From: a virus
Direction: 5' to 3' (one strand)
Virus record (IMG/VR): IMGVR_UViG_3300046465_000029
Location: 1 to 22,027 of that record
Length of the DNA stretch: 22,027 nucleotides
Shown: piece after piece, positions 14,694-19,463 of the stretch
Position numbering within the stretch: position 1 is the first letter of the stretch
How the letters are laid out: every line of letters starts with the position of its first letter
Position numbers and translations under genes: made by a program
The notes under the pieces: generated by a model
Told to the model about the DNA's origin: nothing
Databases searched by the model: none
What the model saw: the letters and a program-made list of their open reading frames with translations, nothing else

Positions 14694-15923
14694 TCACAGC
14701 GCGAACTTGACGTTGACGTTAGCCACTGGCTTCACTATGGGCATTTCATAAGCAATGACATAGGTTGTGGCGTCATTTTGATGGTCAAAGCCTGTTGTTT
14801 TGTCTGGGATGCCATTTAGATAGGTCTGCTGTTCTAGGCATTCTGCGACTCGCTTACATTTAACGGGGTTAATTTTTACTCGCCCTTTTTCCAGCGCGGA
14901 ATTCATAGACATTACCCTGTCTTTAACTAAAGGGTTTTGTTTCTTGGCCCTGACAGAAAAGCCTGCTTGTTGAAGCAGTGCTATGTCGCTAATACTGGCG
15001 TTGGAGCTATGCCTAGCACCTCCAGAGGCGTCAGGATATATGTAGATGTGGCTGTCTGGGTATGCAGAGTTAATGCACTCAATCATGTCGCGAGTGTCAT
15101 ACATATCAACAAATTCGTTTACTGCGTGAAGCTCATCGCCTCTAATGACAAATACTGTCGCCGCTTGTTGCATGACGTTAAAGTCACAACCTATTAACAC
15201 TGGCTCGCCTTTTTGATATTCCTCGTCACTGCCGCAAGTGTCTCTGTCATAGCTGGCATATACCGTCCCGCTTGTGAGGTTTACAAACTCACCGTCTAAA
15301 TAGGCTTTTAAAAGGTTAGCGGAGTAAGTCTCTGATAGCGTTTGTATGTAATTAGGCGGCAAATATTTAGCGTTTGATGCGGTTGGGGCTTTAATAAGCG
15401 CATAGCTTGGCGAGGGGTTTTTCTTCCAGCGCTCATATACAAACCGGAATCCCTCTGGCGTTGTGCCTACTGCAACCGTATTAATCCCTGTTTCTTTTTT
15501 TTGGCGGTTACGGGCAATGATCTGCTCCCACGCTCTTTGCGCTTTTGCAAGAGGCAAGGTGTCAAGCTCATCTACGCATGAGTCGCTGACTTCATATCCA
15601 ACAATACGGTCTGGGTTGTCTAAGGTGCGGAATATAATGCGCTTGCCGTTAACGTAAATGGCGTGTTCACTGCGGTTTATGCGGAACGGTATACCAGAGC
15701 CGCCTAGTATTTCCTCAAAGCGAGGATAGCAAATGTCCCTGACAAGCCCGTATGTCGGCATATAATAAGCAAGGTCACGCCCATCCCCAAACACTTTAGT
15801 AAGGGTTCTAAGGATTAAAGCATGAGTTTTGCCTGAGCCAAAGCCGCCCACAAAAGCAGGGAATGGTGCGGGGTGATGTATAAAATCAACCTGCGGCTTG
15901 CTCCCCGTTGTCTCCAATATCAT
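14694..15923 (-). CDS. terL: Terminase large subunit
   Basis: A 409-residue packaging motor with ATPase and nuclease halves. The Walker A motif is GGFGSGKT at 26-33 and the Walker B/catalytic pair is CVDELDT with D118-E119; a TTPEGF motif near 154-159 fits motif III. The nuclease half has acidic residues at D247 (IGCDFN), D298 (YPDASGG) and a final FDHQNDATTY motif near the C-terminus, the RNase H-like triad of terminases. LDGEFVNLTSGTVY (about 209-222) is the usual linker. The gene starts 38 nt inside the small subunit gene and precedes the portal. All key residues appear intact, so it should be functional. Confidence 0.95.
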   Translation of the reverse strand: MILETTGSKPQVDFIHHPAPFPAFVGGFGSGKTHALILRTLTKVFGDGRDLAYYMPTYGLVRDICYPRFEEILGGSGIPFRINRSEHAIYVNGKRIIFRTLDNPDRIVGYEVSDSCVDELDTLPLAKAQRAWEQIIARNRQKKETGINTVAVGTTPEGFRFVYERWKKNPSPSYALIKAPTASNAKYLPPNYIQTLSETYSANLLKAYLDGEFVNLTSGTVYASYDRDTCGSDEEYQKGEPVLIGCDFNVMQQAATVFVIRGDELHAVNEFVDMYDTRDMIECINSAYPDSHIYIYPDASGGARHSSNASISDIALLQQAGFSVRAKKQNPLVKDRVMSMNSALEKGRVKINPVKCKRVAECLEQQTYLNGIPDKTTGFDHQNDATTYVIAYEMPIVKPVANVNVKFAL

Positions 15924-16251
15924 CTTCTACGACTCTAAACCCTTTTATCTGTATATCGCCTTGCACAATTTGAGCGTCTTGCTGGCCTAACCAGTTTTTG
16001 CCAAGCCACACCATCATGGTGCTGTTGCCCTCTTGAGCGGCTTGAAATTGACGCCTCCTAAGAGATATTTTTCCTGCTTGGCGCTTTTGGGCAAAATAGT
16101 CCGAAAAACCCCTGCCTTTCTTTCTTTTACAGATGGTATTTAATGTGTCGTAATCTATGTCAAAGAATGCCGCTATTTCTTCTCCGGTGCATTGAATAGC
16201 ACATAGCTTGTCAAAATCATTCCAGTCTATCTCCTTGAGTGGCCTCGCCAT
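15886..16251 (-). CDS. terS: Terminase small subunit
   Basis: A 121-residue protein that recognises phage DNA to start packaging. The N-terminal part contains a helix-turn-helix (CTGEEIAAFFDIDYDTLNTI, about 21-40) followed by a basic KRKKGRGFSDYFAQKRQAGK segment. It then has LRRRQFQAAQEGNSTMMVWLGKNWLGQQD, spanning about 64-92, which is a hallmark of small terminases paired with this large subunit type. The acidic C-terminal tail probably contacts the large subunit. It overlaps the large subunit gene by 38 nt. The 27-nt gap to the cupin gene upstream shows no terminator, so the cassette upstream and the packaging genes may share a transcript. Confidence 0.9.
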   Translation of the reverse strand: MARPLKEIDWNDFDKLCAIQCTGEEIAAFFDIDYDTLNTICKRKKGRGFSDYFAQKRQAGKISLRRRQFQAAQEGNSTMMVWLGKNWLGQQDAQIVQGDIQIKGFRVVEDDIGDNGEQAAG

Positions 16252-16278: not shown

Positions 16279-16920
16279 TTACACCTCTTTTGTGCCGTTA
16301 AACATTGGGTGGTTGTTTTCCATGCCTTCCGGTGTAGAGCTAAAAATATGGATTGGCAGAACGGTGAGTGGAGTTTCCTCCGTTCTGAAGTGGTGTGGGC
16401 ACATAGGTTCAAGTATACAGGTCATGCCTGCGACAAGCTCCGTTTCCTCATCATCCCCTTTTTGGCCGACAATACTCCAGCCTTTCCCCTCTAAAACATA
16501 AACTACTCGGACTGTAGGGTGAATATGGTGAACTTGCTCGCTCGTAAAAGGCGGCATTGTAAGTTGCTGAAACGTGGGATCGCCAATTCTTTCTGGCGCA
16601 AAAAGCTGTCTAGTAGCACAGCCATTAACGTAAGGCAGATTTACCCGCTCCCCTAGCGAGGTTTTTTTGTAGCCGCACTGATACCCTGCGATGTGAACGG
16701 CTAAATGCTCGCTGTAGACCCTTTTTCTTTCTGGCGTCCACTCAACCGATTTGAGGTCGCCGCTGACCATTAATCGACTGCCGCCTTTTTCAATCTCAGG
16801 CGTCATTTGCTTTCCAATAAACGCCGTGTAGGTATAGAGGTCTTTATCTGAGGATTCGTAAATTTCTTCTTCCTCTTTATGCCAATAATGTGCGCCGTAT
16901 CTGGTGTTATGTATTCCCAT
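16279..16920 (-). CDS. Cupin-domain protein of the ParB/DUF3440 cassette
   Basis: A 213-residue protein whose C-terminal half is a cupin barrel. Cupin motif 1 is HHIHPTVRVVYVLEGKG (131-147), with H132 and H134 as likely metal ligands, but the usual glutamate is not seen (R138/V139 there). Motif 2 is AGMTCILEPMCPHHF (164-178), with H176 or H177. The N-terminal ~120 residues resemble nothing I know and contain a Trp/Tyr-rich start (MGIHNTRYGAHYWHKEEEE). The gene follows the second ParB-like gene by 3 nt, with a GGAG site. Cupins can be dioxygenases, isomerases or sugar-binding proteins, so the reaction is open. A non-enzymatic, ligand-binding role is possible given the missing Glu. Confidence 0.8.
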   Translation of the reverse strand: MGIHNTRYGAHYWHKEEEEIYESSDKDLYTYTAFIGKQMTPEIEKGGSRLMVSGDLKSVEWTPERKRVYSEHLAVHIAGYQCGYKKTSLGERVNLPYVNGCATRQLFAPERIGDPTFQQLTMPPFTSEQVHHIHPTVRVVYVLEGKGWSIVGQKGDDEETELVAGMTCILEPMCPHHFRTEETPLTVLPIHIFSSTPEGMENNHPMFNGTKEV

Positions 16921-16923
16921 TTT

Positions 16924-17427
16924 TTATACTCCCCAAGATTTAGAAAACTCTGAGTCATCAATAAGATCGCTTTTTGGTATGCCGACCCTAGCGGCAAGCC
17001 TAATCACTTCTTCCTCTTCCATTTGAAGACGCGACATGACTTCCTGCTTTGAAAGGCCGTCATCAATCATTGACTGAATAATCCCAGACATATCTAAAAC
17101 GCCATGCGTTCCTCGCGCTCTATTATGTCGGATTGTGCTCATCTTTTGGTGCGCGTCATTATTTGGCGCAGTCATAACAACAGGGACGAGTCCTTTTGTC
17201 ACTTCCATAAGCTCTTTGTGTCCGCTAACCGTCCAGCGATGAAACCCGTCCACTATTTCATAGTCTGGATTTACAACAATCGGCTGAGTCCATCCGTCTT
17301 CAAGTATGCTAATTTTTAAGAGCTTCATTTCTGGGCTTGCCACCCTGTTAGGGTTGTACCCGTTAGGTTTAAGCTTGTTTCTGTCTATCCATTGAACGCT
17401 GTTTATAGGTTGCGAATCGTGGCTCAT
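16924..17427 (-). CDS. ParB-like protein, IbrB type
   Basis: A 167-residue ParB/sulfiredoxin-fold protein. Visible motifs are YNPN (24-27), an ILEDGWTQPIVV strand-helix (41-52), DGFHRW (60-65, the ParB nucleotide-binding box with a Phe-His-Arg core) and IRHNRARGTH (99-108). The last is, as I recall, characteristic of IbrB-like proteins that pair with DUF3440 PAPS-reductase-like partners. The C-terminus has a helix-turn-helix-like stretch (GLSKQEVMSRLQMEEEEVI, 124-142). It overlaps the DUF3440 gene by ATGA and has a strong AGGAGGG site. It is probably a CTPase/ATPase-type switch or DNA-binding regulator; nuclease activity, though often annotated, is not shown by the sequence. Confidence 0.85.
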   Translation of the reverse strand: MSHDSQPINSVQWIDRNKLKPNGYNPNRVASPEMKLLKISILEDGWTQPIVVNPDYEIVDGFHRWTVSGHKELMEVTKGLVPVVMTAPNNDAHQKMSTIRHNRARGTHGVLDMSGIIQSMIDDGLSKQEVMSRLQMEEEEVIRLAARVGIPKSDLIDDSEFSKSWGV

Positions 17428-18599
17428 GCTCCCTCCTGTTTTTTCCCGTAAAGCATTTTTGCTTGCGCCTGCGTCATGCCTAAGCTATTAAGCCTTGTGC
17501 TGGCTTCATTACTAAGGTTTTGCAGAATGCGGCCCTTAAAATCTCCGCGCGTCACAATTTTTGATATAAAGCGCCATGAAACTCCGGTAAGCGGGTGAGC
17601 TAGCTCCTCTGGAATGGCGTCATCTGTTTTTGCTTTATGGGCGCGAATGGCCGCATTTACGTTTTTTGTTGCCGCCCTTTTGTTTTCGCCATTAAACTGA
17701 TCAAGGACGTTTTGTATATGCGCTCTCCATGATGTTTGATCTGGCTTGTAGCCCTGCGAATACATCTCCGTATTGCCATATCGTGCCGCAGTTGCCGCAC
17801 CTGCGACGCGATTAATCATTTTTTCCCATAACTCAGGAAAGCATTGGCTGTATAAGTACAGGCCGCGCAATGGTTCTTCTCCAAAAGGTGGGCAGACTCT
17901 TTGCTTTAACAGCGAGCCATACTGGTCAGTTCTGTTAAAAATATCGTACGTCCGGTTATAGTCCGCGTCTTTGTTTTTTACTAGTCGCCAAACATCTTTA
18001 GACGACCAATCATAAATGGGGTAAGCAAAATAAATCCCCTTGTTTGGTTTTGATATGTAGTTTTCATTTTTTTTCATTGCGACAGCGCGGTAACGACGGA
18101 TGCTTTCTTCTGTCCTGATGCCTTGTATGACCACTTTGTTTGTGTTTTTAAAGTGGGCTAATCCAAACTCCTGCATACTCTGACCCATCACGAATCGCTC
18201 ATGATCTGTAATAGCTTCTGGAGGTAAGTCTCTGACCCATATATCTTTTTCGTCGGGATGCCAGCAATGCCAGAACGGCTGACTATTAGAACAAGCGTTT
18301 CTATGTTTTATAGGCAGACAGTACCAATCTAGCTCTACCTCTGAGGACTGTGCTACGCGCCTCACATAATCAATTGTTGGAGGATGTATTGCCTCCTCAT
18401 CATAAAACACGGCTTTAACGGGCAACCTTCCTAGCTTAGTTGCAACGTCAATAGTGCAAAGCAACATAGCGGTGCTGTCTTTTCCTCCGCTAAATGACAC
18501 TATTACGTCATCATAGGTGTTATACAGATGCTCTATCCTCGCGAGAGCGGCCTGATAAACGTCTTCCTCTTGATATTTTTTTTTGTGGATCTTCGTCAT
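17424..18599 (-). CDS. DUF3440 / PAPS reductase-like ATP pyrophosphatase (IbrA-like)
   Basis: A 391-residue adenine nucleotide alpha-hydrolase. The PP-loop is SFSGGKDST at 35-43, followed by FYDEEAIHPPT (65-75), WYCLPIKHRNACSNSQPFWHCW (92-113), GIRTEES (160-166) and YPIYDWSSKDVW (193-204). The LP..RNA.S layout and the 140-residue C-terminal extension match the DUF3440 group that includes E. coli IbrA. The C-terminal ECGLH-type motif of assimilatory PAPS reductase (CysH) is absent. Cysteines at 103, 112 and 236 (RVCPPFGEEP) could act in sulfur or metal chemistry. The enzyme probably adenylates a substrate, but which one is unknown. It is flanked on both sides by ParB-like genes, each with an ATGA overlap. 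Confidence 0.88.
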   Translation of the reverse strand: MTKIHKKKYQEEDVYQAALARIEHLYNTYDDVIVSFSGGKDSTAMLLCTIDVATKLGRLPVKAVFYDEEAIHPPTIDYVRRVAQSSEVELDWYCLPIKHRNACSNSQPFWHCWHPDEKDIWVRDLPPEAITDHERFVMGQSMQEFGLAHFKNTNKVVIQGIRTEESIRRYRAVAMKKNENYISKPNKGIYFAYPIYDWSSKDVWRLVKNKDADYNRTYDIFNRTDQYGSLLKQRVCPPFGEEPLRGLYLYSQCFPELWEKMINRVAGAATAARYGNTEMYSQGYKPDQTSWRAHIQNVLDQFNGENKRAATKNVNAAIRAHKAKTDDAIPEELAHPLTGVSWRFISKIVTRGDFKGRILQNLSNEASTRLNSLGMTQAQAKMLYGKKQEGA

Positions 18600-19207
18600 A
18601 CATCCAGCACCATGATCATTAAAGCGTCCTCGTTACTGCTTACATCATGCTCGCGCTTTATTTCGTTAAGGCGTGAAACCAGTAAGGTTTTGTTTTCCTG
18701 TTGCATCACTACCGCAAACTCCGCGTAACCCTCGTCTGTTTTTTTGGGAGTTACATCACTTTCAGAAAATTCCTCACCGTCTTCGACCCCAAACTCATCA
18801 TTCGATATTGATGGCTCAAAATCCATGATCTGCATGTCTATATCAAATCCGGTCAGCGACATATCAAACTCAGCGGCTTGTAGATCATCTAGCTCCATCT
18901 GCAAAAGATCGACACTCCATGAGGATTTTTCAGCAAGGCGGTTGTCAGCAATAACATACGCCGCTCTATCTTCTTGCGATAACTCGCCTGTTTGTACTAC
19001 AGGTATTTTTTCCATTCCCAAAAGCATAGCGGCTTTATATCTGCCGTGTCCTGATATGATGGTCATGGTGTTATCAATAAGAATGGGGGCTTTCCAGCCG
19101 AAATGCTGGATGCTGGTAGCTATTTGTTTTATTTGCTGTTCTGAGTGCTGGCGGGGGTTGCGCGCATACTCTTTAACGTCTTGGATATTTGCGTACAACA
19201 GATCCAT
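18596..19207 (-). CDS. ParB-like nuclease-domain protein (cassette gene 1)
   Basis: A 203-residue protein with an N-terminal ParB domain: NPRQHSEQQI (17-26), ISGHGRYKAAMLLG (51-64, nucleotide-binding box) and YVIADNRLAEKSSW (84-97). These are followed by DLLQMELDDLQAAEFDMSLTGF, as in ParB-like proteins often fused or adjacent to DNA methyltransferases. The rest (about 110-203) is acidic with no recognised domain. Here there is no methyltransferase; the next gene is the DUF3440 protein, coupled by ATGA. An AAGGTGA site precedes the ATG, inside the end of the 96-residue ORF. It is clearly different from the IbrB-type ParB two genes on, so the cassette has two non-redundant ParB folds. Confidence 0.88.
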   Translation of the reverse strand: MDLLYANIQDVKEYARNPRQHSEQQIKQIATSIQHFGWKAPILIDNTMTIISGHGRYKAAMLLGMEKIPVVQTGELSQEDRAAYVIADNRLAEKSSWSVDLLQMELDDLQAAEFDMSLTGFDIDMQIMDFEPSISNDEFGVEDGEEFSESDVTPKKTDEGYAEFAVVMQQENKTLLVSRLNEIKREHDVSSNEDALMIMVLDV

Positions 19208-19463
19208 CTATCACCTTCACATAAAAGCCGCTTGGCGGCGAAACAATTTCCAGCACTTCTTCTGGGTTTGCCTCAGTCAAAGGGACTAGGCCGTAACTTT
19301 TTGTAACGGCTATCTGCTGGGCTTGCTCTACAGCTATCTTTTCAGCTAGCCGTAAAACGCCAGTTATTGCTTCCTGTTCAGCTTTCCCGCAAGCGAAGCT
19401 GGGTGTCAACGGTTTCAGAGGCAAGCAAGTCTCCAATAAATTTGTCTTTTTGCGCGTTGACAT
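19173..19463 (-). CDS. Hypothetical protein with uncertain start (up to 96 aa)
   Basis: The stop at 19173 closes a frame whose downstream part looks protein-like (LRLAEKIAVEQAQQIAV, then LVPLTEANPEEVLEIVSP). The end overlaps the ParB start by 35 nt. The only ATG in frame is at 19463, 86 nt inside the 68-residue gene, with no good ribosome binding site. After that gene's stop there is an AGGAAG but only an ATA codon in frame. The true start is therefore unresolved: the long form, an internal TTG, or an unusual start. I recognise no family. Composition is Ala/Glu-rich at first and basic at the end. Confidence 0.5.
   Translation of the reverse strand: MSTRKKTNLLETCLPLKPLTPSFACGKAEQEAITGVLRLAEKIAVEQAQQIAVTKSYGLVPLTEANPEEVLEIVSPPSGFYVKVIDGSVVRKYPRR

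Follow-up and report, generated by a model that had tools for sequence, protein, structure and literature searches.

Adjacent genes for a DUF3440 PP-loop protein and a ParB-like protein are known from IbrA/IbrB and from YbdN/YbdM of Escherichia coli, in most cases with the DUF3440 gene first, and database records annotate IbrA and IbrB as co-activators of prophage gene expression. In the Dnd system (DndB-DndC-DndD-DndE), too, a PP-loop enzyme gene lies beside a ParB-fold gene. Gat-QueC of the 7-deazaguanine phages, such as 9g, is a DNA-modification precedent for a PP-loop enzyme coupled to a class II glutaminase. Here we describe a four-gene cassette in the 22,027-bp IMG/VR virus record IMGVR_UViG_3300046465_000029, the whole of which we call the window. 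The cassette encodes a ParB N-domain protein (ParB1), a DUF3440 protein, a second ParB protein (ParB2) and a bicupin, lies directly upstream of the terminase genes, and is almost certainly a functional unit. Its genes are as follows:

18596-19207, minus strand: ParB1, 203 aa, a ParB N-domain protein with a GHGR box and without a helix-turn-helix (HTH).
17424-18599, minus strand: DUF3440 PP-loop ATP pyrophosphatase, IbrA/YbdN-like, 391 aa, with SGGKDS intact and ECGLH absent.
16924-17427, minus strand: ParB2, IbrB/YbdM-like, 167 aa, a ParB N-domain with DGFHRW and HNRARGTH and an HTH-like C-terminal part.
16279-16920, minus strand: bicupin of a new phage family, 213 aa, with QxxHxHxxxR...H in its C-terminal barrel and a C-terminal HPMxNxT.

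The first-pass annotation, made from the sequence alone, had placed these genes on the minus strand with junctions of −4, −4 and +3 nt and had read from them the motifs GHGR, SGGKDS, DGFHRW and IRHNRARGTH; all of the open reading frames and motifs were confirmed. It had also named conserved co-occurrence beforehand as the point on which its proposal could be refuted. We ran this check with two anchors, reading only the best 80 loci per search; IMG/VR contigs are fragments. The search anchored on DUF3440 confirmed 289 viral relatives, from the best 80 of which 79 loci were fetched, and counting was restricted to the 46 loci flanked on both sides by 2.4 kb or more. ParB2 was present in all 46, ParB1 in 43 and the cupin in 41, and 39 carried all four genes. 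The search anchored on a divergent type of the cupin confirmed 432 relatives; among the best 80, which were fetched, 58 had enough flank and 57 of these contained all four genes, the remaining locus ending at a contig edge. Some contigs are common to the two sets. The four-gene set was conserved in both searches, and the four families recur together far beyond chance.

The arrangement of the genes is similarly constrained. Neighboring cassette genes lie on the same strand in 480 of 482 pairs, and the gaps of the common pairs have medians of −4 to +1 nt. The order ParB1-DUF3440-ParB2-cupin characterizes the window's group and ParB1-cupin-DUF3440-ParB2 most others. Every locus with a window-type cupin and enough upstream sequence shows the former order, and these loci keep the full cassette also beside terminase genes that have no relation to those of the window. 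The pairwise distances of the cassette proteins are correlated with one another (rho 0.28-0.67), while the correlations with the terminase large subunit (TerL) are 0.12 for the cupin, 0.14 for DUF3440 and 0.42 for ParB2. These values indicate that the set moves largely as a unit between phage backbones, with some backbone signal in ParB2. Gene fusions among cassette members, which would provide Rosetta-stone evidence, were not found.

The second fixed property of the cassette is its position. In the window, 27 nt separate the cupin gene from that of the terminase small subunit (TerS), which overlaps the TerL gene:

15886-16251, minus strand: TerS (phrog_309/phrog_606), part of the fixed neighborhood.
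14694-15923, minus strand: TerL (PF03237, 60.2 bits; PF17289, 33.8 bits).

TerL lies no more than 4 kb downstream in 36/36 cupin-anchored loci that contain ParB2 and extend 2.5 kb or more past it. It falls within four genes in 60 of the 79 DUF3440-anchored loci, and most of the remaining loci are truncated or have another terminase type. The terminases next to the cassette differ between phage groups.

The kinship of ParB1 bears on the meaning of this position. ParB1 matched PF02195 with 32.3 bits (cut-off 26.3), phrog_620 (1e-48) and phrog_498, a DNA methyltransferase family (7e-43); PADLOC matched MTase_II to it (1.5e-30) over the ParB part only. Its nearest cultured relatives are for the most part fusions of ParB to a DNA methyltransferase (phrog_498 type), the ParB domain of which is homologous to ParB1. 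In all three annotated genomes that were checked (pOW20-A, P8625 and Javan174) such a fusion is located just upstream of the terminase, which suggests that the slot is used by DNA-modifying ParB enzymes. In contrast to the fusions, the 203-aa ParB1 contains ParB_N only, without a methyltransferase domain, and catalysis in the cassette would fall to a separate PP-loop enzyme and the cupin. A survey of ParB-fold proteins (PMC12704722) reports that they bind ATP or GTP besides CTP and that phages commonly encode them, in many cases as methyltransferase fusions. In Pantoea phage AH01, a cultured relative by its terminase, small unknown genes occupy the cassette slot.

The best reading of these data, which we hold tentatively and at somewhat less than even confidence, is ParB-guided, ATP-dependent and site-specific modification of nucleic acid before packaging. 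The substrate would most likely be the phage's own DNA, modified at sparse or specific sites shortly before it is packaged. ParB1 and ParB2 would act as nucleoside triphosphate-binding, DNA-engaging subunits, the HTH-like part of ParB2 giving or reading the site. The DUF3440 enzyme would activate a group by ATP-dependent adenylation, the bicupin would perform a metal-dependent tailoring step, and in the extended loci described below an ammonia-dependent amidation would come from a second PP-loop protein together with a class II glutaminase. We infer DNA as the target, the adenylation, the amidation and the order of the steps.

Both ParB proteins resemble centromere-binding proteins, and a partition system was therefore weighed. 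The profile matches of ParB1 in the Protein Data Bank (PDB) are to Noc, Spo0J and ParB through the N-domain only. ParB2 (PF02195, 29.7 bits; phrog_2159, 1.7e-62) has a family profile that aligns with ParB/Noc structures through chain residues of about 130-160, into the HTH region, and is the more constrained of the two, with 34 invariant columns in 36 sequences. For a parS search we used the 36.8-kb contig IMGVR_UViG_3300037427_000190, which is 99.96% identical to the window and has ends that overlap by 188 bp; it is the complete genome, circular or terminally redundant and ∼36.6 kb in length, of the window's phage. No repeated parS-like palindromes were evident in this complete relative. Nor was there a ParA-type gene among the annotated neighbors, the recurring neighbor clusters or the G007 open reading frames scanned, although no dedicated ParA search was made. 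With the genes also located beside the terminase, partition is hardly credible despite the ParB_N domains and the Spo0J/Noc/ParB matches.

The DUF3440 protein matched PAPS_reduct (PF01507) with 52.9 bits (cut-off 22.5), PF11922 (DUF3440) with 44.5 bits (cut-off 25) and phrog_2302 (2.6e-87). Its AlphaFold model has a predicted local distance difference test (pLDDT) value of 88, and the nearest folds are CysH, FAD synthase and CysD, followed by the sulfur transferases TtuA, LarE and NcsA. The adenylylating or thiolating PP-loop enzymes among these neighbors were counted in favor of the modification reading. The database name of the family, together with CysH as the closest fold, would suggest a true 3′-phosphoadenosine 5′-phosphosulfate (PAPS) reductase. 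However, ECGLH is absent from 54/54 diverse members, 53/54 have the ATP-type SGGKD loop, and the CysH models scored far below their cut-off, which rules out identity with CysH. That the gene serves assimilatory sulfate reduction as an auxiliary metabolic gene, its neighbors in the cassette being passengers, is further opposed by the fixed four-gene set and is exceedingly improbable.

The first-pass annotation had also pointed to a Dnd or phosphorothioate link, which our data weaken. The PP-loop protein scored 26.5 bits against the DndC equivalog TIGR03183, for which the cut-off is 290.4. DndD was detected in 0/17 carrier contigs; related proteins were matched in nine control genomes, none above the cut-off. 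AAA_23 was absent from 16 carrier contigs and present in all 14 controls. DndE was matched in 0/17 carrier contigs, and the control genomes were likewise without a match. Unlike a Dnd enzyme, the cassette protein falls below the DndC cut-off and lacks a DndD partner in the carriers, and on these two grounds we ruled out Dnd membership. No cysteine is invariant in the DUF3440 family (C94 in 49/54, C103 and C253 each in 46/54 members), which weakens any thiolation reading. Dnd/Ssp-like phosphorothioation, or other DNA thiolation by way of a host cysteine desulfurase, could draw on the distant DndC and BrxP model matches and on LarE, TtuA and NcsA among the fold neighbors; set against the DndC score, the missing DndD and the lack of an invariant cysteine, it is very unlikely.

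The likeness to IbrAB is closer. The DUF3440 and ParB2 genes overlap by 4 nt, the ParB2 family hidden Markov model matches IbrB/YbdM, and 13/14 IbrA-like references have the SGGKD loop. The assignment of the pair to the IbrA/IbrB type, made at first sight, thus stood, as the same pair occurs in E. coli as YbdN/YbdM. The suggestion that the extra ParB and the cupin mark a distinct variant was borne out as well. A single branch of the maximum-likelihood tree separates all 54 cassette proteins from the 14 IbrA-like references, YbdN among them (support 85/32; 84% of bootstrap trees), so that the cassette proteins appear distinct from the IbrA/YbdN branch with modest support. In addition, no cupin was found in 13 IbrAB-like reference phage genomes, while three carrier controls were positive. 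The branch, with its modest support, and the absent cupin rule out that the cassette is simply IbrAB. The reference pairs, Salgado excepted, are also mostly away from the terminase, whereas the cassette is beside it. In a published E. coli data set, CitR represses the ybdNM operon, and citR deletion raised expression of ybdNM and of cysteine-regulon genes (PMC9068703); these data are correlative and were not used as support. A divergent DUF3440 relative in Microbacterium phage Hendrix (L234:1589-5137) is located beside genes annotated as glucosyltransferase, methyltransferase and N-acyltransferase, the methyltransferase label being without Pfam support.

A regulatory module, in which the DUF3440-ParB2 pair and the extra genes switch on late phage or host genes, would accord with the co-activator annotation of IbrA/IbrB, the HTH-like part of ParB2 and the place of the cassette at the border of the late operon. 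But a regulator would not need as many as four to six proteins that look catalytic and conserve their active-site motifs, the cassette DUF3440 proteins lie outside the IbrA/YbdN branch, and repeated parS-like palindromes are again lacking in the complete relative. We regard such a module as unlikely.

The cupin matched Cupin_2 (PF07883) with 31.7 bits (cut-off 27.2), and its AlphaFold model (pLDDT 88) has a bicupin fold. Foldseek matched the model to ureidoglycine aminohydrolase (PDB 4e2q) and several dioxygenases, whereas a PDB sequence search with the cupin profile returned noise only. The two-barrel fold is shared with bicupins of the 4e2q or DUF861 type (TM-score up to 0.65), but the identity is at most 13% and the cassette cupin has an invariant motif of its own. 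Specifically, 22 columns are invariant among 38 relatives, and Q129, H132, H134, R138, H176, H191 and HPMxNxT are present in all 38 members, with an arginine where most cupins carry the metal-binding glutamate.

Small molecules are the usual substrates of cupins, and ParB/Srx-fold proteins and PP-loop enzymes frequently work on them or on nucleotides. The cassette might therefore be directed at the host, making or destroying a small molecule or nucleotide, or modifying host RNA or protein, to disarm a defence or redirect metabolism. The matches to ureidoglycine aminohydrolase and dioxygenases fit this reading, as does the palindrome avoidance reported next, which suggests that virion DNA is not globally modified. 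The fixed place before the terminase and the kinship of ParB1 with ParB-DNA methyltransferases, on the other hand, point to DNA, and PADLOC identified no defence system, only distant domain matches. A host-directed or counter-defence role is accordingly a minority possibility, though one we take seriously.

To return to nucleic-acid modification, six-base palindromes provide information on its extent. In the window's phage (complete relative L115/L116) 235 were counted against 502 expected, a ratio of 0.47 (z −15.6). The ratios in the other carriers range from 0.28 to 0.91, with G010, G012 and G005 at 0.28-0.33. As yardsticks, T7 gave 0.63, lambda 0.69, 9g 0.76 and T4 0.96; since 9g itself is at 0.76, intermediate ratios do not discriminate. 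The strong avoidance makes most carriers look like phages with DNA exposed to type II restriction, and the counts argue against global hypermodification. Sparse modification fits these data because palindrome avoidance persists, and site-specific marking and RNA or small-molecule targets remain compatible with it as judged from sequence. Of the DNA modification proposed at first pass, a nucleic-acid-modifying role at sparse or specific sites thus survives as the best, if inferential, reading, while wholesale protection of DNA is weakened by avoidance that in many carriers, the window's phage included, is as strong as or above that of T7.

Several points weigh against the modification reading. 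Genome-wide modification that protects against type II restriction appears unlikely from the palindromes. The place upstream of terS is a common site for accessory genes. The cupin-less relatives Salgado and 035JT001 have a gene labeled methyltransferase in place of the cupin, a candidate that was rejected because the label has no Pfam support. IbrAB, the related pair, is known for regulating gene expression and not for a modification.

In some loci the cassette is extended by a second PP-loop protein (PP-loop2; PAPS_reduct, with WSGGKDS) and a class II glutaminase (GATase_6), encoded between the cassette genes. The extended form occurs in prophages of four IMG isolate genomes (L012, L014-L016) and in further metagenomic loci (for example, L012:4649-5979; also L046-L048, L100-L102, L108 and L154), and in several of these the glutaminase begins with MCGIFG. 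Among 47 cupin loci with good flanks, 17 encode PP-loop2 and about four the glutaminase. Of all the features of the cassette, this pairing hints most strongly at a biosynthetic step that uses ATP and ammonia. It recalls Gat-QueC, and the 9g record annotates gp06 as a glutamine-dependent aminotransferase. In contrast to Gat-QueC, the glutaminase and the PP-loop enzyme are separate genes, and the QueC model is failed by the PP-loop protein of the window (18 bits vs. 22) and by PP-loop2. Genes of the QueD, QueE or FolE type were absent from the G007 open reading frames scanned.

Other departures from the four-gene form were observed. An isolate prophage-like contig of 119 kb contains three tandem DUF3440 copies (L105:2105-6290) with PP-loop2 and ParB2 and no cupin. 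An accessory contig of Endozoicomonas cretensis (L020) has a DUF3440 fragment, ParB2 and the cupin, with no evident terminase after the cassette. In one prophage, ParB2 is split into two overlapping frames (L031:7157-7670), possibly by a frameshift, and is intact in sister prophages. A conserved protein of ∼165 aa without a clear Pfam domain is encoded between DUF3440 and ParB2 at L062:5499-6011 and in about 10 similar loci. A small SET-domain protein is found inside or right after the cassette at L019:4155-4514 (PF00856), with a similar start at L027:9651-9947 and L029:611-907.

The cassette is carried by hundreds of uncultured phage contigs in IMG/VR. In contrast, tblastn (E 1e-5) with window-type and divergent cupin queries revealed no relatives in 50,697 phage records, the window query found none in PLSDB plasmids, and 0/38 members of the cupin family had a PHROG match. 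A search of one open-access library, which is not proof that the system is undescribed, found no paper naming ParB, terminase and cupin together, and the text of the ParB-fold survey (PMC12704722) does not contain the words PAPS, phosphoadenosine or Ibr. The mycobacteriophage Giles paper (PMC5705681) was set aside as not relevant, since the cupin and PAPS reductase in its interaction screen come from the host. The operon is real, widespread and apparently unannotated. It offers a defined gene set and conserved residues for testing the long-unknown function of the DUF3440/IbrA family, including E. coli YbdN, and could reveal new nucleic-acid modification or counter-defence chemistry. More speculatively, it may represent a new class of phage nucleic-acid modification, ParB-guided and PP-loop-driven, with bicupin tailoring and an optional glutaminase-coupled PP-loop2, that marks DNA at specific sites before packaging. 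If so, a DNA modification chemistry not yet known would be present in a broad set of uncultured phages.

Beyond TerL, the window encodes a DUF4055 portal, a MuF-like protein and a capsid protein. The G+C content of the four cassette genes (0.44-0.47) matches that of the rest of the window (0.465), so that by composition they are not a recent foreign insert. An Rfam scan of the window gave no matches, and promoter and terminator scans did not rise above shuffled sequences. The accessory open reading frames scanned outside the window in the complete relative included NinG, ERF, a sigma-like/HTH protein, an M15 peptidase and unknowns, with no DNA methyltransferase among them. One further small open reading frame adjoins the cassette:

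19173-19463, minus strand: small open reading frame overlapping ParB1, with tblastn matches in L001-L003.

By these matches it is kept in close relatives only, and it is probably on the same transcript as ParB1.

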